From Campylobacteraceae bacterium (lineage in GTDB: Bacteria > Campylobacterota > Campylobacteria > Campylobacterales > Campylobacteraceae): DNA of 10,151 nt. How positions within the stretch are numbered: the stretch's first letter is position 1; the number at the start of each line of letters is the position of its first letter. Shown here one piece after another: positions 1,481 to 10,151 of the stretch. Under the pieces are notes generated by a model. That model was not told where the DNA came from and did not search any database. It saw only the letters and a list, made by a program, of their open reading frames with translations. Both the position numbers and the translations under genes were made by a program. The stretch lies in contig JAIRQK010000038.1 in the NCBI GenBank assembly GCA_031256525.1, positions 1-10,151 on the forward strand, written 5' to 3'.

Positions 1481-2266
1481 TTAACTTCTTTCAAAAGGTA
1501 TTCCGCGTTTTGTATCAATAATAAATTGACAAAAAACACGCACCTTCTCATTATTTGTTGATTCTAAAAGCTCTAATGCACTATCTCTAATTGGAGCTGG
1601 ATTTTTAAAAATTTTTCTATATGCATCTTGTAGTGCTATTATGTTCTCCTTGTCTTCATGCCTTCTTAATCCAACAAGATTTAGACCTCTAACAGATGCT
1701 CTATTTCCTTCGGCTAAACAAAATGGTGGAACATCTTGAGAAAGAGCACTTGCTCCGGCAATCATACACCCCTCACCAATTTTAACAAACTGATGAACTG
1801 GAGTCATACCACCAATAACAGTGTTTGAACCCACTTCAACATGTCCTGCTAATGTTACTCCATTTGCCAAAATGATATTATCATAAAGTAAACAATCATG
1901 AGCAATATGACAAAAATTCATCATAAAGCAGTTATTCCCAATTCTCGTAGTAAAATCACCTTTTGCAGAACCGCCATTTATTGTTACAAATTCACGAATT
2001 GTACTATTGTCACCAACTATAACTTTTGAGACCTCTTCCCCAACTTTAAATGAGATATCTTGAGGGTCCCCGCCTACGATAGCATATGAATAAACTTTCA
2101 CATTTTTGCCAATTATCGTGCTTCCTAAAATTTGAGCACCTTGCATAATTTGCGAATTATCACCAATTCTACTTTGAGAAGATACAAAAGCATTTGGTCC
2201 AATAGTTACATTTTCGCCAATAACCGCTCCATTTTCGATTATCGCTGTTGGGTGGATTTTACTCAT
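1481..2266 (-). CDS. lpxA: Acyl-ACP--UDP-N-acetylglucosamine O-acyltransferase LpxA
   Basis: LpxA performs the first step of lipid A synthesis in the cytoplasm, moving an R-3-hydroxyacyl chain from ACP to the 3-OH of UDP-GlcNAc. The 261-aa protein begins with hexapeptide repeats that form a left-handed beta helix (IHPTAIIENGAVIGENVTIG and onwards to about residue 185) and ends with the helical domain (LRRHEDKENI and following). The catalytic base is His123 in NFCHIAHDC, equal to E. coli His125. G171 aligns with the chain-length ruler Gly173 of E. coli, which fits a long (C14-type) acyl group; this is an inference from position only. The start ATG overlaps the fabZ stop by one base (TAATG), so translation is probably coupled to fabZ, which supplies hydroxyacyl-ACP metabolism. 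Confidence 0.97.
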   Translation of the reverse strand: MSKIHPTAIIENGAVIGENVTIGPNAFVSSQSRIGDNSQIMQGAQILGSTIIGKNVKVYSYAIVGGDPQDISFKVGEEVSKVIVGDNSTIREFVTINGGSAKGDFTTRIGNNCFMMNFCHIAHDCLLYDNIILANGVTLAGHVEVGSNTVIGGMTPVHQFVKIGEGCMIAGASALSQDVPPFCLAEGNRASVRGLNLVGLRRHEDKENIIALQDAYRKIFKNPAPIRDSALELLESTNNEKVRVFCQFIIDTKRGIPFERS

Positions 2267-2712
2267 TATTTATCTACCACCATTGCTTTAAGTTCAGCCT
2301 CTGCTACTAATTTATCATCAGTATAAGCCTTTGCATCTAAAACCCAAATATTGCCCTTATGTTTTAAAACTTCAAGTTTATAAACGAGCTTATCACCGGG
2401 AGTTACCGGAACTCTGAACTTTGCTCTATCAATACTCATAAAGTAAACTACCTTATCTTTAGTATCTTTTTGCTCATCTTTATTCATACTAATAAAAGCC
2501 AAAACTCCACCAGCTTGTGCCATTCCCTCAATTATCATAACACCCGGATATATTGGGTGCTCTGGAAAGTGACCCTGAAATATCTGCTCCCCAATGGTTA
2601 CATTTTTATACGCTTCAATATATTTTCCATTTTCTACTTTTTCAACTCTATCAATAAGCAAAAAAGGAAATCTATGAGGGAGTATTTTTTGAATATCAAC
2701 TACATTTAACAT
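2266..2712 (-). CDS. fabZ: 3-hydroxyacyl-[acyl-carrier-protein] dehydratase FabZ
   Basis: FabZ dehydrates 3-hydroxyacyl-ACP to trans-2-enoyl-ACP in fatty-acid elongation and competes with LpxA for the same hydroxyacyl-ACP pool. The 148-aa protein is a single hot-dog domain. It opens with the family's IQKILPHRFPFLLIDRV and has the catalytic segment GHFPEHPIYPGVMIIEGMAQ, with His48 and Glu62 as the expected catalytic pair. Length is typical (about 145-150). It lies directly upstream of lpxA with a TAATG stop/start overlap and 38 nt after queH. The Shine-Dalgarno site is weak (AAGG about 11 nt before the ATG), while the IQKILPHRFPF alignment supports this start. Confidence 0.97.
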   Translation of the reverse strand: MLNVVDIQKILPHRFPFLLIDRVEKVENGKYIEAYKNVTIGEQIFQGHFPEHPIYPGVMIIEGMAQAGGVLAFISMNKDEQKDTKDKVVYFMSIDRAKFRVPVTPGDKLVYKLEVLKHKGNIWVLDAKAYTDDKLVAEAELKAMVVDK

Positions 2713-2750
2713 CTGTTATTTTACCTTACATAAAAAATCTTACCATTTTA

Positions 2751-3839
2751 TCAAATGCTTACTAAAACTTCCCTAATATCTTCATAACTCTTAGTTAATG
2801 AGTAAATTTCATACCCCCCATCTATAATTTCATCAAGTACAACAATTGGGGTAAGCGAAAACTTCTCATTATCTATTTTGGCTCTTATCTGCAGGGATTT
2901 TTTTATGGAAATTGAGCTGAATATCAAATTTTTTACACTCTCATATCTTGTCTTTGCCAATTTATTAAACTCTTTAAGACTTAAAAAAACAACCTCATCT
3001 TTATACGCAAAGTCTTTATCGCTCGCAAGTAAAAGAATTTTTATATGTTCTTTTTTAAAAATTGAATGAAATAAAATATAGCTTGGGATAGTTTTATTTT
3101 CATATTTAGTTTTTGCACTTAATAGTCTATAGTTTAAAAATCTTCTTTTTTCGATTTCAAACTCTTTCTCTCTTTTTTCATATTTTATAATTTTTTTATA
3201 AAGTTTCATCTTCTCCTCAATGGAGTTTGGCAAAATTTCTCTTCCAATAGGCATAAACATTTCGTCATTTATCTTTTTTTGTGCCTCTCTTTGCCTGTTT
3301 AATGCAAACATACACCCGCAATAGTTTTGATGATATAGTTTATCTTTCTTTGCCAATGCAAATTGGGCTTGTGTTCCGCCATTTTTTCTAAAATCAGGAG
3401 CAAAGACATTTAAATTATACTCCTTTTCAATTTTTTTTGAAGCCAAAATTAACTGCTCATGTGATTTTTTTGGACTCATAAAAAGCGTTGTTGTGAGTTT
3501 TTTTTCGCCAAGTTCTTTCGCTTTTTTAGCACTAATTTCAAGCCTTACATCAAAACAGATATCACACCTTTTCCCTTTCTCCCTCTCCTCTTCAAATCCA
3601 TTTACTCTATCAAACCAATGCGAAATATCATACTCACCTTCAATTAGGTCAATGCTGAGCTTTTTACAACTTCTTTTAACATCTTGCAATCTCAATTTGT
3701 ATTCGCTATATGGGTGAATATTTGGGTTGTAGAAAAAGCCTATTAATCTTTCGCACGGAAACTCTTCTTTTAATTTTTGCAAGAAAAAATGGCTATCAAC
3801 CGAGCAACAAATATGAACTAACAACTCTTTTGTCTCCAT
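2751..3839 (-). CDS. queH: Epoxyqueuosine reductase QueH (DUF208 family), long form
   Basis: QueH catalyses the last step of queuosine synthesis, the reduction of epoxyqueuosine to queuosine at the wobble position of GUN tRNAs, and is unrelated in sequence to the cobalamin-dependent QueG. The N-terminal half (about 1-190) has the family signatures: LLVHICCSVDS with C11-C12, FYNPNIHP(Y)SEY at 36-46, RCDIC with C92 and C95, and YCGC with C174 and C176. The first four cysteines probably hold the iron-sulfur/metal centre and the last pair may act as a redox disulfide; this is from family knowledge. The 362-aa length exceeds the roughly 200-aa core. Residues about 195-362 are a lysine-rich extension without a motif I recognise. 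I recall long QueH forms in Helicobacter relatives but cannot check. It is first in the minus-strand cluster. No strong Shine-Dalgarno precedes the ATG, and the leader is very A-rich. Confidence 0.9.
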   Translation of the reverse strand: METKELLVHICCSVDSHFFLQKLKEEFPCERLIGFFYNPNIHPYSEYKLRLQDVKRSCKKLSIDLIEGEYDISHWFDRVNGFEEEREKGKRCDICFDVRLEISAKKAKELGEKKLTTTLFMSPKKSHEQLILASKKIEKEYNLNVFAPDFRKNGGTQAQFALAKKDKLYHQNYCGCMFALNRQREAQKKINDEMFMPIGREILPNSIEEKMKLYKKIIKYEKREKEFEIEKRRFLNYRLLSAKTKYENKTIPSYILFHSIFKKEHIKILLLASDKDFAYKDEVVFLSLKEFNKLAKTRYESVKNLIFSSISIKKSLQIRAKIDNEKFSLTPIVVLDEIIDGGYEIYSLTKSYEDIREVLVSI

Positions 3840-3850
3840 ATTGTATTTTT

Positions 3851-3861
3851 TTTATTATAAC
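3851..3861 (-). promoter_or_regulatory. Candidate extended -10 promoter for queH-fabZ-lpxA-clpX-mreB
   Basis: On the minus strand the bases just upstream of queH read TGTTATAAT, a perfect -10 hexamer (3854-3859 complement) with the TGn extension, about 15 nt before the queH ATG. No clear -35 is seen, as is usual for sigma-70 promoters in Campylobacterota. It would imply a very short leader. It is the only convincing promoter-like site upstream of this five-gene run. Confidence 0.45.
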
Positions 3862-3865
3862 ATTT

Positions 3866-3895
3866 TTGCACATAAAAAGAATTTTTTGGTAAACT
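3866..3895 (+). promoter_or_regulatory. Weak candidate promoter for the EamA permease
   Basis: TTGCAC (3866-3871) and TAAACT (3890-3895) are 18 bp apart in the 84-bp divergent spacer and point at the permease gene starting at 3924. The -10 is poor and such matches occur by chance in AT-rich DNA, so this is only a suggestion. Confidence 0.2.
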
Positions 3896-3923
3896 TATCC
3901 AATCTTAAAAAAAGAGCTAAAAT

Positions 3924-4799
3924 TTGAGTAAAAAAACATTTTATATTTTAATGGTTTTTGCAATGTTTGCATGGGGTATAAGCTCGACGAATACGAAAAT
4001 TTTAAGTGAATATATACGAGCTGAAGAGATTGTTTTTGTAAGATATTTTATCAGTATGGTCTCATCTTTTTTCATCGTCATACTTGCAAAAAAGAGTTTT
4101 AAGATAGACAAAAAATCACTTTGTATCGCTTTTGCGGCTGGGCTATTGACCTCTATTTACACAGTTACAACTTTTTTTGGAATAAAACTTGGAACTGCTG
4201 GAGTTGCAGGAGCGTTTATAAACACTTTAGCCCCAATAAACACTTTTATAATATTAGCACTTTTCCTAAAAAGAAAAATGTATAAAATTGACATCATTGC
4301 TTTAGCGATTGGGTTTGTTGGGGCTATTTTGATTTTAGGTATTTGGCAATTTGATAAAGAAAAAATTTTTACAACATACAATATACTATTCATAATAAGT
4401 GCTTGGCTTTGGGCAATGCTAACGGTTGTTAGCTCATTTTCAAAAAAAATAGACCCTTTAATTTTCTCTTTTTATATGTATCTGTTTGTTGCGATTTTAG
4501 CTTTTCCATTTGCTGATTTAGGTTCTTTAAATCTATTAGAAAAAGACAGCACCTTTTGGATAAACCTCCTTTTTATGTCGATTATTAGCACCTCAGTTGC
4601 AACTTCCCTCTATTTTATCGGAGTAGAAAAACTTGGTAGCGTAGAGGTTAGTTCGTTTATGTTTATAACACCACTCTCTTCTATCTTTTTTGGAGCAGTT
4701 TTTCTTAAAGAAGAGATTGGTTTTTGGACAATTGTCGGAACAATTTTAAGTATCTGTGCGGTCTATATGATAAATAGAATAGGCGTTTTTAAAAATTAG
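3924..4799 (+). CDS. DMT-superfamily permease with two EamA domains
   Basis: This is an inner-membrane transporter of the drug/metabolite transporter superfamily, a family that mostly exports amino acids or other small metabolites; the substrate cannot be told from sequence. The 291-aa protein is almost all hydrophobic and shows about ten membrane segments in two repeats. The first repeat runs from FYILMVFAMFAWGISSTNTK to about 140, with FVRYFIS and the GTAGVAGAFINTLAPI helix. The second runs from about 152, ending with SSFMFITPLSSIFFGAVFLKEE, which is the typical last-but-one helix of EamA proteins. Length matches the family. The start is TTG at 3924, with an AAAGAG ribosome site about 8 nt upstream; it puts the charged MSKKT just before the first membrane helix. 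It is divergent from queH and convergent with bcp, so it is probably its own unit. Confidence 0.9.
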   Translation: MSKKTFYILMVFAMFAWGISSTNTKILSEYIRAEEIVFVRYFISMVSSFFIVILAKKSFKIDKKSLCIAFAAGLLTSIYTVTTFFGIKLGTAGVAGAFINTLAPINTFIILALFLKRKMYKIDIIALAIGFVGAILILGIWQFDKEKIFTTYNILFIISAWLWAMLTVVSSFSKKIDPLIFSFYMYLFVAILAFPFADLGSLNLLEKDSTFWINLLFMSIISTSVATSLYFIGVEKLGSVEVSSFMFITPLSSIFFGAVFLKEEIGFWTIVGTILSICAVYMINRIGVFKN

Positions 4800-7535: not shown

Positions 7536-8204
7536 TTGAAAATTAATTGGGAAAAGAGTTCTTTAATTCCAGCAATTGCTCAGGATATAAGAACCAATGA
7601 GGTTTTGATGCTTGGCTTTATGAATAAAGAGGCTTACGAACTAAGTCAAAAAACGAAAATTGCTCACTATTTTTCTCGATCCAAAGGAAGAATTTGGAAA
7701 AAAGGGGAAATTAGTGGGCATACTCAAACGATTAAAGAGATGTTGCTTGATTGCGACCAAGATACAATTCTTTTAAAAGTAGAACAAAATGGTGTTGCTT
7801 GTCACACTGGAAACAAGACTTGTTTTTTTGATGATATTCTTAATTGTAGAAATTTAGGTTTAGCCAATAAAGACAATTTTACATCTCACTATGGAATTTT
7901 GGATAGACTTTATCATACTTTGCAAAATAGAAAACAAGAAAACTCCGAAAACTCTTACGTGGCAAACCTTTTAAAAAAAGGTGAGAATGCCTACTTAAAA
8001 AAAGTGTCTGAAGAGGCTGCTGAGTTTTGTTTGGCGGTGAAAGACAACAGTGAGCAAGAGATTATTTACGAGGCTGCTGATTTGGTTTTTCATATGTTGG
8101 TTGCATTGGTTGATAAAAATATCCATCCAGACAAAATAGAACAAGAACTTGCTCGTCGCTTTGGAATAAGTGGGATAGAAGAGAAAAATTCTAGAAAAAA
8201 ATAG
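7536..8204 (+). CDS. hisIE: Bifunctional phosphoribosyl-AMP cyclohydrolase / phosphoribosyl-ATP pyrophosphatase HisIE
   Basis: This fused cytoplasmic enzyme performs steps 2 and 3 of histidine synthesis: the HisE domain splits pyrophosphate from PR-ATP and the HisI domain opens the ring of PR-AMP. In the 222-aa protein the HisI domain covers about 1-105, with LMLGFMN, the metal motif D72-C73-D74-Q75-D76, and C89 (GVACHTG) and C96 (KTCFF), which with C73 make the zinc site. The HisE domain covers about 120-212 and has a MazG-like all-helix pattern: E159, E160 and E163, then E179 and D182 (SEEAAEF, EAAD), ending in ARRFGISG. The start is TTG at 7536 with AAGGAG 5 nt upstream, and it gives the expected N-terminus INWEKSSLIPAI. 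The gap after the SPFH gene is 19 nt. It is the last gene of the plus-strand unit, and no clear terminator follows. Confidence 0.95.
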   Translation: MKINWEKSSLIPAIAQDIRTNEVLMLGFMNKEAYELSQKTKIAHYFSRSKGRIWKKGEISGHTQTIKEMLLDCDQDTILLKVEQNGVACHTGNKTCFFDDILNCRNLGLANKDNFTSHYGILDRLYHTLQNRKQENSENSYVANLLKKGENAYLKKVSEEAAEFCLAVKDNSEQEIIYEAADLVFHMLVALVDKNIHPDKIEQELARRFGISGIEEKNSRKK

Positions 8205-8244
8205 ATAATCTACCATTTGTATACGAAAAAGTGCTAAGATGTCA

Positions 8245-8262
8245 AATGTATTTGCAAATGTT
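8245..8262. repeat. Left copy of an 18-bp inverted site with core ATTTGCAAAT
   Basis: AATGTATTTGCAAATGTT contains a perfect 10-bp palindrome at 8250-8259. It is repeated in opposite orientation, with one mismatch in 18, at 8510-8527, so that the two copies bracket the 71-aa gene. The left copy lies 2 bp before a TAAAAT -10-like box (8265-8270), where a bound protein would block transcription. It may be an autoregulatory operator or the edge of a small inserted cassette. Confidence 0.45.
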
Positions 8263-8285
8263 CATAAAATAAACAAGGAGTTTTT

Positions 8286-8501
8286 ATGAAAGTAACAAAA
8301 AAAGATGTCTTAAATGCATTGGAAGAGTTTAAAAAATCAAACAAGAGCAGATTGAGAAAAGATATATACGAATTTTTGAATAAAAAATTTGGCACATCTG
8401 TTAGATGCTACAACTATAAAATCACTGACGATAAAGCAAAAGTTTCTTTAGAGGATGAAAGTGAAATGAAGTATGTAGCAAGCAAGTTTGCTAACGCGTA
8501 A
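8286..8501 (+). CDS. Small basic protein of unknown function, 71 aa
   Basis: I do not recognise this family. AAGGAG (8275-8280) lies 5 nt before the ATG, which is strong support for real translation. The protein is charged and lysine-rich, without a membrane segment or signal peptide. Residues 4-35 (KKDVLNALEEFKKSNKSRL, then KDIYEFLNKKFG) look like two or three amphipathic helices with a basic face. The rest, from TSVRCYNYKITDD, may form a short strand and a last helix. Nucleic-acid binding is a guess from charge only. It stands alone, 81 bp after hisIE, between two inverted copies of an ATTTGCAAAT site that could be its own operators. It marks the change from conserved housekeeping genes to the accessory part of the window. 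Confidence 0.75.
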   Translation: MKVTKKDVLNALEEFKKSNKSRLRKDIYEFLNKKFGTSVRCYNYKITDDKAKVSLEDESEMKYVASKFANA

Positions 8502-8509
8502 ATAAGCTT

Positions 8510-8527
8510 AATATTTGCAAATACATT
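8510..8527. repeat. Right copy of the 18-bp inverted ATTTGCAAAT site
   Basis: AATATTTGCAAATACATT is the reverse complement of the left copy at 8245-8262 except for one base; the palindromic core is 8513-8522. It starts 8 bp after the stop of the 71-aa gene and touches the stop of the decayed minus-strand fragment at 8526. Confidence 0.45.
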
Positions 8528-8713
8528 AATTATACATTTTTGCGTTGTTCCAAACCTTTTTTAGTTTATTGTCTGTAAAAGATTTTAAAAGTGGATGTAG
8601 CTTTTTCTTACAATCATTACGAGCTGCTACGGGCAATCCAAAATTTTATATAAGTTTTTCTATACTTAAATGTAAATGATAACTGTTTTTTAAAAGGCAA
8701 GTATGGCTAAACT

Positions 8714-8734
8714 TGTAATTTTTTAAAAATTACA
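8714..8734. repeat. Perfect 21-bp palindrome
   Basis: TGTAATTTTT and AAAAATTACA are perfect 10-bp arms around a single T. The sequence lies in the gene-poor stretch and is pure A/T apart from one G and one C. It could be a protein-binding site or a cruciform. As RNA the loop is too tight unless the central pairs open. Confidence 0.4.
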
Positions 8735-8750
8735 GTATTACTCAAATCAA

Positions 8751-8790
8751 TCTAAATTAATAGAGGGATTCCCCCCCATATTAATTTAGA
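8751..8790. repeat. 12-bp perfect inverted repeat with a GC-rich loop containing seven C
   Basis: TCTAAATTAATA (8751-8762) and TATTAATTTAGA (8779-8790) pair perfectly. The 16-nt loop holds GAGGG and a run of seven C (8771-8777), so that GGG can also pair with CCC inside. Such a G/C block is striking in DNA this AT-rich. No T-run follows, so it is not a standard terminator. It could be a small structured RNA, a cruciform, or the target of a site-specific enzyme. Confidence 0.5.
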
Positions 8791-8817
8791 AAAAGAATAG
8801 AAGTAAGAGGCTTAGTC

Positions 8818-8842
8818 GCAATAAGAACTTCTTGCTTTTTTT
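8818..8842 (+). terminator. Weak terminator-like hairpin with T-run
   Basis: GCAA (8818-8821) pairs with TTGC (8832-8835), with two more pairs inside, and seven T follow directly (8836-8842). It could end a short plus-strand RNA containing the hairpin at 8751-8790. The stem is short and has a mismatch. The same bases are Lys codons in the minus-strand fragment. Confidence 0.25.
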
Positions 8843-8910
8843 AACTTTAAGACTGAATTTAAAATCAGCTATCATTTTACTTCATTTTATACCAAGGTGG
8901 TAGGTATATA

Positions 8911-8944
8911 CAAAATATTTTTGTTATTCCATAAAAATATTTTG
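8911..8944. repeat. 12-bp perfect inverted repeat (A/T stem)
   Basis: CAAAATATTTTT (8911-8922) and AAAAATATTTTG (8933-8944) pair perfectly around a 10-nt loop, GTTATTCCAT. It is nested in a wider inverted pair, TTTTTTAACTT (8837-8847) and AAGTTAAAAAA (8953-8963). It is 55 bp upstream of the first CRISPR-like repeat. The function is not known. Confidence 0.4.
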
Positions 8945-8998
8945 AAGTTGTCAAGTTAAAAAACATTGTTGTTTTATTTCAGCAAAATTATTCTTTTA

Positions 8999-9164
8999 GT
9001 TATAGCAGCCTATCTTTCCAAAATATGTTATAATTCTAAGTTCTGAAATTGAGTAGTCCATTTTGTTATAGCAACCTATCTTTCCAAAATATGTTATAAC
9101 CTATAATCAAGTTATTATCATATCTTTGGTTATAGCTACTTTTCTTCCAGAAATATGTTACACT
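8999..9164 (+). CRISPR. Short degenerate CRISPR array, three 36-bp repeats and two spacers, type II-like
   Basis: Repeats lie at 8999-9034, 9065-9100 and 9129-9164, each exactly 36 bp; spacers are 9035-9064 (30 bp) and 9101-9128 (28 bp) and unrelated to each other. Repeat 2 is taken as consensus: it starts GTTATAGCAACC and ends TATGTTATAAC, so its ends are inverted (GTTATA/TATAAC). Repeat 1 matches it at 34 of 36 positions and repeat 3 at 27 of 36, as expected for a worn distal repeat. Length 36 with spacers near 30, a GTT start and the TATGTTATAA extended -10-like end recall type II-C arrays of Campylobacter and Neisseria, where each repeat carries its own promoter. No cas9, cas1, cas2 or anti-repeat (tracrRNA) was found in the window. 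It is probably a relic, or an orphan array served in trans. Confidence 0.75.
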
Positions 9165-9186
9165 TGCATAGATAATATATTTTTTG

Positions 9187-9192
9187 AGGAGG
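9187..9192 (+). promoter_or_regulatory. Strong ribosome binding site before a non-canonical ATA start
   Basis: AGGAGG is a perfect Shine-Dalgarno match, 5 nt before ATA at 9198 and directly followed by an in-frame TAA (9195-9197). It fixes the likely start of the Cys-rich frame although no ATG, GTG or TTG is available. Confidence 0.6.
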
Positions 9193-9197
9193 CGTAA

Positions 9198-9413
9198 ATA
9201 GAACTTAATAGAATTGATTTTGTTCAAGACAAAAAGTGCAATCGTTTTAAACGCCCATTAACAATTGCACATATTGCACTAAACAATGGAGAAGAGATCT
9301 GTTTTGGGTCAGAATGTGCAAAAAAAGAGATATTTAACCCAATATTTTTTTGTTGGTATAAGTTCAACGATAACACTTATTGTAGTTTATGCAGTTTTAG
9401 AGATAAAGCATAG
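9198..9413 (+). CDS. Small cysteine-rich (probable zinc-binding) protein, apparent ATA start
   Basis: The frame encodes 71 residues beginning (I/M)ELNRIDFVQDKKC and ending YCSLCSFRDKA, and contains no ATG, GTG or TTG codon. An in-frame TAA lies just before ATA, and AGGAGG stands 5 nt from ATA, so ATA is the best start; otherwise a former ATG has mutated by one base. Six cysteines, C14, C35, C40, C52, C62 and C65, and the segment NNGEEICFGSECAKK suggest a small zinc ribbon. I recall FGSECAKK-like motifs in small phage and archaeal zinc proteins, but cannot name a family. It starts 33 bp after the last CRISPR repeat and ends 19 bp from the convergent viperin stop. It may be a live gene with rare initiation or a fresh pseudogene. 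Confidence 0.5.
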   Translation: MELNRIDFVQDKKCNRFKRPLTIAHIALNNGEEICFGSECAKKEIFNPIFFCWYKFNDNTYCSLCSFRDKA

Positions 9414-9432
9414 AGAGCACTAAGCAATTTAT

Positions 9433-10151
9433 TTACATTGAGTATCTACTTTTGAATTTACCCTTGTCAAATGCGACCTGCGAAAAAGCTCGTTCTAAAC
9501 CAACTTCAAAAATAGGATCACTATAGCGGTATTTTTGACCATTTCCATTTTGAAAAAATCTGCCAGATGGGTCAATCATTAAGTAACCTTGAATCATTTT
9601 ATCCTCATCTTCTATAACAACATTTTCTTTTTTGATAGACTCTCCATTAATTCTTAAAAAATGCCTAAATTGTTCATCTGAAACACAATCTTCCCCATCA
9701 AAAGATAGTTGACGCAAAATTTTCAGCCTATGGGGTTTATATGCTTGTAATTGCTCCACGATATTTGTATTATAATTGTACTTGCTGACTACAATATTGA
9801 ATTTCAATCCGATTTTGTAATTGTTCAATTTTATTATATTGATAATATTTTCCAGTTTCTCTTTAGACAGATAGTTTTTGCCAAAATATCTACCTATGTT
9901 TAAACAAGTTGCCCTATCCAAACTATCTATTGAAATGCCTATCATATTTAAGTGTTCCAGTATATTTGAATGAGATTCAAGTAAAGAGCCATTTGTTATT
10001 AAAGAGGTGTCAAAACCCATCTCTTTTGCCTTAATAACTATTTTGTTAAAAATATTTTTTTTGAGCAGTAACGGTTCTCCGCCTGCAAAATTTAAGCGTA
10101 TAGAGGTGATCTCTTCACCCATCAATTTACTAATAACCTCTTTTTGCGATA
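9433..10151 (-). CDS. Prokaryotic viperin (pVip), radical-SAM ddh-nucleotide synthase, N-terminus beyond the window
   Basis: Viperins use a [4Fe-4S] cluster and SAM to turn nucleoside triphosphates into 3'-deoxy-3',4'-didehydro forms that stop viral RNA synthesis; bacterial and archaeal members defend against phage. The 238 visible residues are open to the window edge, so the ATG at 10122 is internal. Seen in order: RLNFAGGEPLL (human NFSGGEPFL), SLITNGSLL, MIGISIDSLDRATCLNIGR (human LAISCDSFDEEVNVLIGRG), LKFNIVVSKYN, HRLKILRQLSFDGED (human RWKVFQCLLIEGEN), GYLMIDPSGRFF (human SYLILDEYMRFL) and DPIFEVGLERAFSQVAFD. Human segments are from memory. The C-terminal match separates it from other radical-SAM activating enzymes. 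The CxxxCxxC cluster motif should lie about 15 codons beyond the edge and cannot be checked. It is convergent with the Cys-rich frame; any nucleotide-kinase partner would be outside. Confidence 0.88.
   Translation of the reverse strand, partial: SQKEVISKLMGEEITSIRLNFAGGEPLLLKKNIFNKIVIKAKEMGFDTSLITNGSLLESHSNILEHLNMIGISIDSLDRATCLNIGRYFGKNYLSKEKLENIINIIKLNNYKIGLKFNIVVSKYNYNTNIVEQLQAYKPHRLKILRQLSFDGEDCVSDEQFRHFLRINGESIKKENVVIEDEDKMIQGYLMIDPSGRFFQNGNGQKYRYSDPIFEVGLERAFSQVAFDKGKFKSRYSM

Follow-up and report, generated by a model that had tools for sequence, protein, structure and literature searches.

Viperins form a family of enzymes that produce chain-terminating antiviral nucleotides; the product of their reaction and the way it blocks RNA synthesis are established (PMC10732462; PMC9642334). 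The mouse enzyme RSAD2 (PDB 6q2p, 5vsl) shows about 27% identity to the structural model of P0002, a full-length prokaryotic viperin (pVip) of 284 amino acids. The membrane helix of animal viperins is not expected in the protein described here. P0002 is 71% identical to this protein and both end two residues past a conserved RY; it has a complete N-terminus with the CxxxCxxC motif, unlike our piece. A second relative, P0012, is encoded in Candidatus Fibrimonas sp. Mcx344_bin28 (locus L104, 10001–10864), a host of a different phylum, and is 59% identical to our protein along its entire visible part; its gene overlaps a downstream cytidylate-kinase-like gene, whereas ours is not followed by one. 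Finally, five pVips from the same phylum or order (L089 from Campylobacteraceae, L068 from Helicobacteraceae, and L131–L133) represent the same enzyme family and all carry CxxxCxxC, with about 35–42% identity to P0002.

The window analysed here, of 10151 bases, is the entire contig C22; the genome it belongs to totals 996,579 bases over 183 contigs, with 66.8% completeness and a contamination estimate of 0.06%. The host is a Campylobacteraceae metagenome-assembled genome (MAG). The gene order mreB, clpX, lpxA, fabZ found in the window is typical of Campylobacter. Among the best 120 matches listed for the window LpxA, the nearest named relatives are Campylobacteraceae MAGs (78% and below), and five closer matches lie at 83–99%, one of them probably from the host's own cluster. 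Together with the Campylobacterota-type Cas9 of the same genome described below, these relatives support the Campylobacterota host that the initial annotation had proposed.

The pVip open reading frame occupies positions 9433 to 10149 on the minus strand. It comprises 238 codons without internal stop, ends with a stop at 9433, is open at the contig end (10149) and matches residues 47–283 of P0002. The NCBIfam profile NF038283 (viperin_w_prok) recognised the piece with an E-value of 6.9e-72 and 242 bits, above its curated cut-off of 180, and the animal-type viperin profile TIGR04278 with 7.9e-23 (81 bits). The MoaA profile (1.2e-10, 40.9 bits) and the NrdG2 profile (21.5 bits) stayed under their cut-offs of 284 and 131, respectively. 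Several other radical-SAM families matched weakly, and Pfam Radical_SAM scored 29.4 bits for a cut-off of 29.5, a slight shortfall that is expected since the N-terminus is absent from the piece. Searching the sequences of solved structures returned nine viperins on top (best E 1.8e-19) and two MoaA last (2.9e-4), the solved viperins, mouse RSAD2 included, being aligned to window residues 18–235. The PADLOC pVip model, which covers viperins without kinase association, gave 3.9e-69 and the kinase-associated pVip model 1.2e-63; this gap is no test of kinase linkage, because the kinase-linked P0012 scores both models within about 1 bit. On this sequence evidence, which greatly exceeds what chance would give, the visible 238 residues belong to the prokaryotic viperin family (pVip, SAND). 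The viperin match claimed by the initial annotation for the whole visible length is thus upheld by curated profiles, by the solved viperins and by the trees presented below, and the two C-terminal segments that it had named, LKILRQLSFDGED and GYLMIDPSGRFF, are both found in the translation.

The AlphaFold model of P0002 (mean pLDDT 90) retrieved mouse viperin with bound CTP as first structural match (E 1.2e-20); the top 30 chains were viperins or viperin-like, and MoaA came next (E 1.1e-9). Two segments were located in the window protein. The first, RLNFAGGEP (10072–10098, minus strand, residues 18–26), includes the GGEP motif, which has a SAM-binding role in radical-SAM enzymes; its R, N and GGEP are invariant in all 21 aligned rows. 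The second is the C-terminal segment GYLMIDPSGRFF (9553–9588, minus strand, residues 188–199), with a tyrosine aligned to mouse Tyr302. Seven presumed NTP-site residues of the mouse enzyme, K120, R194, K220, N222, R245, K247 and Y302, were compared, the numbering being derived from the solved-structure alignment. In these columns the window protein has R, R, K, N, R, K and Y, and therefore differs from mouse viperin only by the K120 to R replacement. Six of the seven columns are invariant in the 21 rows, with Arg in every row at the K120-equivalent position, and at the R245-equivalent position 18 rows have R and three have K. The roles of these residues were looked for, and not found, in passages of PMC8124187. 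Apart from the absent N-terminus, the active site looks complete as far as the aligned columns indicate.

The contig is exactly 10151 bases long, with no sequence to the right of the pVip piece, which begins at the residue equivalent to position 47 of P0002; the first 46 or so residues, where CxxxCxxC would lie, are not in the assembly. A search of the host genome with P0002, at E-values up to 10, yielded nothing beyond the window piece itself and, on contig C67, a gene used as MoaA; the N-terminus was not recovered. A partial radical-SAM match on contig C151 was rejected as the missing part, because its frame reads like the beginning of another radical-SAM protein, presumably a biotin synthase by its motif. 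CxxxCxxC is present in the 20 other rows of alignment A1 and in 80/80 loci (the best 80 of the 208 confirmed), the latter count being biased, since CxxxCxxC served as the basis for one of the two search patterns.

The initial annotation had suggested looking for a flanking nucleotide kinase or other defence genes, and neither turned up in the frames searched: the query with the L104 kinase gave no match at an E-value of 10 among the 41 frames of window positions 8201–9480, while being positive in four loci, and the six neighbouring window frames had no match in PADLOC. The same kinase was not found in the host genome (67% complete), in a search that had no positive control. The L104 downstream gene is cytidylate-kinase-like (E 2.1e-15) and matches the PADLOC models VakA (1.6e-23) and pVip-kinase (2.4e-65). 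A relative of it was found near the pVip in four of 88 loci, namely L104, L135 and L031 from Fibrobacterota and L084 from Bacteroidetes. Its overlap with the pVip stop measures 4 bases; for L104 the choice of start can raise this to 17. A pVip was found in ten of 111 genomes from the taxonomic family of L104. The three nearest to P0002 (49–70% identity) have the kinase; at the seven more distant loci (34–42% identity to P0002) none was found within 1.5 kb, nor was one found at L034, L032 and L033, from the same wider clade, or at the six other Campylobacterota loci L068, L089 and L130–L133. At the window, the apparent absence of the kinase may reflect a loss or a branch that never had one.

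These observations bear on whether the window gene is still functional. It might be a decayed viperin gene, transferred, parted from its kinase and possibly broken at its N-terminal end, as could be argued from the overlapping kinase of the three nearest Fibrobacterota loci that is not seen downstream here, from the N-terminus absent from the assembly and from a relative within the phylum (genome G404) with a TAA inside its match. Against this stand 238 open codons, compared active-site columns that are kept, 71% identity to the full-length P0002 and the same end point, and we regard decay as unlikely.

The origin of the gene was addressed with three trees. The first, a quick one of 117 rows, comprised the window gene, 47 of the 119 other listed matches, 64 of the 80 loci and five MoaA; 16 loci (fragments, near-duplicates or exact copies of P rows) were omitted, as were two P rows shorter than 260 amino acids. 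The second was a careful tree of 50 of these rows, and the third combined 43 rows of the second with five new ones, L134 being omitted for its internal stop, L135 corresponding to P0019 and L136 lying on the contig of L042. L134 is the copy in G404, a Campylobacterota genome; its match spans residues 109–282 of P0002 only, with a TAA inside, and is likely a decayed copy. In the first tree the five MoaA rows fell outside the 112 viperin rows. The profile searches and the trees with pVips and a MoaA outgroup, both proposed by the initial annotation as a check, thus placed the window gene with the viperins and not with MoaA, SPASM or NrdG-type enzymes, the last two being alternatives that it had named: the MoaA and NrdG2 profile scores were under the cut-offs, and MoaA, the source of all non-viperin rows in the trees, lay outside the viperins.

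The window gene was sister to P0002 in all three trees (99; 100/99; 100/99). Both group with P0003 and with the Ca. Fibrimonas protein P0012 (92; 97/90; 97/89), and in the third tree this group of four sits inside a clade of ten rows (100/97), beside a group with P0019 from Fibromonadaceae. The five Campylobacterota pVips L089, L068, L131, L132 and L133 form a separate clade (100/96), apart from the window gene. A further one, L130 (genome G318), groups with Neisseria, Psychrobacter and Acinetobacter (100/100), with a weak placement within that group (93/39), and reads as another separate gain in the phylum. Forcing the window gene, L068 and L089 together, in an AU test designed with knowledge of the first tree, costs 88 log units and was rejected (p-AU 2.8e-5). 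Forcing all seven Campylobacterota pVips together costs 185 (p-AU 1.2e-112), and L130 alone would break that clade. The horizontal gain of a viperin gene, already put forward in the initial annotation, is therefore well supported for this Campylobacteraceae lineage by the trees together with the AU test. The tree positions further suggest that pVips within Campylobacterota have three or more independent origins. The donor most likely belonged to the Fibromonas/Fibrobacterota side, a direction of transfer that we infer from the tree position. Several relatives come from samples (Mp193P3, Mcx344, Gx485) whose names we take to designate termite-gut MAGs, which would make a transfer within one gut community plausible.

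A short CRISPR array is found at 8999–9164 on the plus strand, with its end some 270 bases away from the stop of the pVip; it is a neighbour of the pVip by position alone. It consists of three 36-nt repeats (8999–9034, 9065–9100 and a degenerate one at 9129–9164) and two spacers of 30 and 28 nt. Another contig of the genome, C119 (L121), encodes at 2002–4041 the N-terminal 680 residues of a Cas9 that is 65% identical to a Campylobacteraceae Cas9, its nearest relatives being from Campylobacteraceae and Sulfurovum. At C119 1934–1969, 32 bases ahead of cas9, a sequence can form 35 pairs, G-U counted, with the 36 positions of the window repeat; the runner-up among 8012 places on the contig reaches 26. 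On the opposite strand these bases are a 30/36 copy of the repeat, so that they may be a stray repeat or else the anti-repeat of a tracrRNA. A search for the 24-base core of the repeat, with up to three mismatches allowed, found only the two window copies. Rather than the CRISPR relic that had been described, this appears to be a small array, probably the short type II partner of the C119 Cas9, with the Campylobacterota-type Cas9 and the matching anti-repeat on another contig. Neither spacer had an exact match in viral contigs, and Rfam at gathering scores returned nothing in the window. Cas1 was not found in the host genome, an absence that means little at 67% completeness, with a control positive in 9/14 genomes. 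Between the array and the pVip lies a small frame of 71 amino acids with six cysteines (9198–9413, plus strand). It is preceded by a GGAGG resembling a ribosome-binding site (9188–9192) and has ATA at the start-codon position, which may be a rare start, a sequence error or the mark of a decayed gene; it had no match in Pfam or PADLOC.

Through the match between repeat and anti-repeat, the right-hand portion of the contig is linked to the host genome, and this weighs against the possibility that the contig end comes from a Fibromonas-like bacterium through a binning or assembly error. The pVip falls in a Fibrobacterota-like position in the tree, completeness is low with 183 contigs, and the codon usage of the pVip is only weakly host-like (+0.05 per codon), less so than that of ten of its eleven neighbours (+0.12 to +0.29). 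A misjoin may lie between the array and the pVip. However, as the repeats pair with an anti-repeat beside a Campylobacterota-type Cas9 of the same bin, a foreign part would have to start within about 270 bases before the pVip stop. Moreover, codon usage still leans towards the host, compared with +0.04 for the 71-aa frame and −0.07 to −0.33 for nine L104 genes, and estimated contamination is as low as indicated above. The GC content (0.31 for the pVip, 0.25–0.37 along the contig, 0.35–0.52 for L104 genes with 0.36 for their own pVip) does not decide the origin. We consider such an error quite improbable.

As anticipated by the initial annotation, pVips are rare and scattered: at an E-value of 1e-20 they were detected in 7/397 sampled Campylobacterota genomes, the host included, and in 2/153 of its family. 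Relatives were confirmed (208 loci) when genome contigs were searched with an alignment query; single-sequence scans of genome and viral contigs gave no confirmed relative. P0002 had no match among 50,697 phage records, and a pVip was present in 14 of 72,556 plasmid records, at 29–38% identity, so that members of the wider family, though not of the window branch, do occur on plasmids in this sample. Literature searches pairing viperin with Campylobacterota gave nothing beyond the PADLOC server paper, and those pairing it with termite gave matches unrelated by title. The gene could also encode a housekeeping nucleotide dehydratase instead of a defence enzyme, in line with the authors of PMC9642334, who argue for enzyme functions beyond the antiviral one; sporadic presence (7/397) and several separate gains fit defence better, and leave this proposal a very slight probability. 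Membership in another radical-SAM family (MoaA, SPASM or NrdG-type) that resembles viperin, to which the near-threshold Radical_SAM score and the weak matches to several such families might point, is refuted at the level of sequence and tree, with a viperin profile some 200 bits over MoaA, MoaA rows outside the viperins and a P0002 model that matches viperins first, and its probability is negligible.

We thus favour, with high confidence, a pVip that would make a ddh-nucleotide against phage and was horizontally gained in a Campylobacteraceae lineage. Its reaction is most likely that of the family, which follows radical-SAM chemistry. The enzyme would bind a [4Fe-4S] cluster, through putative ligands, and SAM, and form a 5'-deoxyadenosyl radical that would abstract the C4' hydrogen of a ribonucleoside triphosphate; elimination of the 3'-OH would then yield a 3'-deoxy-3',4'-didehydro-NTP. 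Use of this ddh-nucleotide by the phage RNA polymerase would stop the phage transcript, giving the putative antiphage effect of the window pVip. By analogy with its relatives, our guess for the substrate would be CTP, the likeliest one given that a cytidylate-kinase-like kinase is paired with the nearest named relatives. More tentatively, and with somewhat less than an even chance in our estimate, the gene may derive from a Fibromonas-like operon of pVip and cytidylate kinase and have been domesticated without the kinase beside the host's own type II array, its ddh pathway drawing on host nucleotide pools alone. If true, this kinase-less domesticated pVip would count among three or more independent gains in Campylobacterota. 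The locus is a further example of a known defence, the family mechanism being unchanged except for the apparent absence of the partner kinase. It also provides a clear instance of viperin transfer between phyla, and the contrast between kinase-linked near relatives and an apparently kinase-less gene offers a comparison for the role of the kinase and the nucleotide used in each branch.

Two features were noticed among the relatives. P0005, P0006, P0008 and P0010 are extended at the C-terminus by some 60 residues that include CGC, YKC and WHLTH motifs and resemble a zinc ribbon; the extension of P0005 matched no Pfam domain. In addition, the Fibrimonas pVip is adjoined, on the opposite strand, by a caspase-domain gene (L104 8873–9877; Pfam Peptidase_C14, PADLOC caspase).
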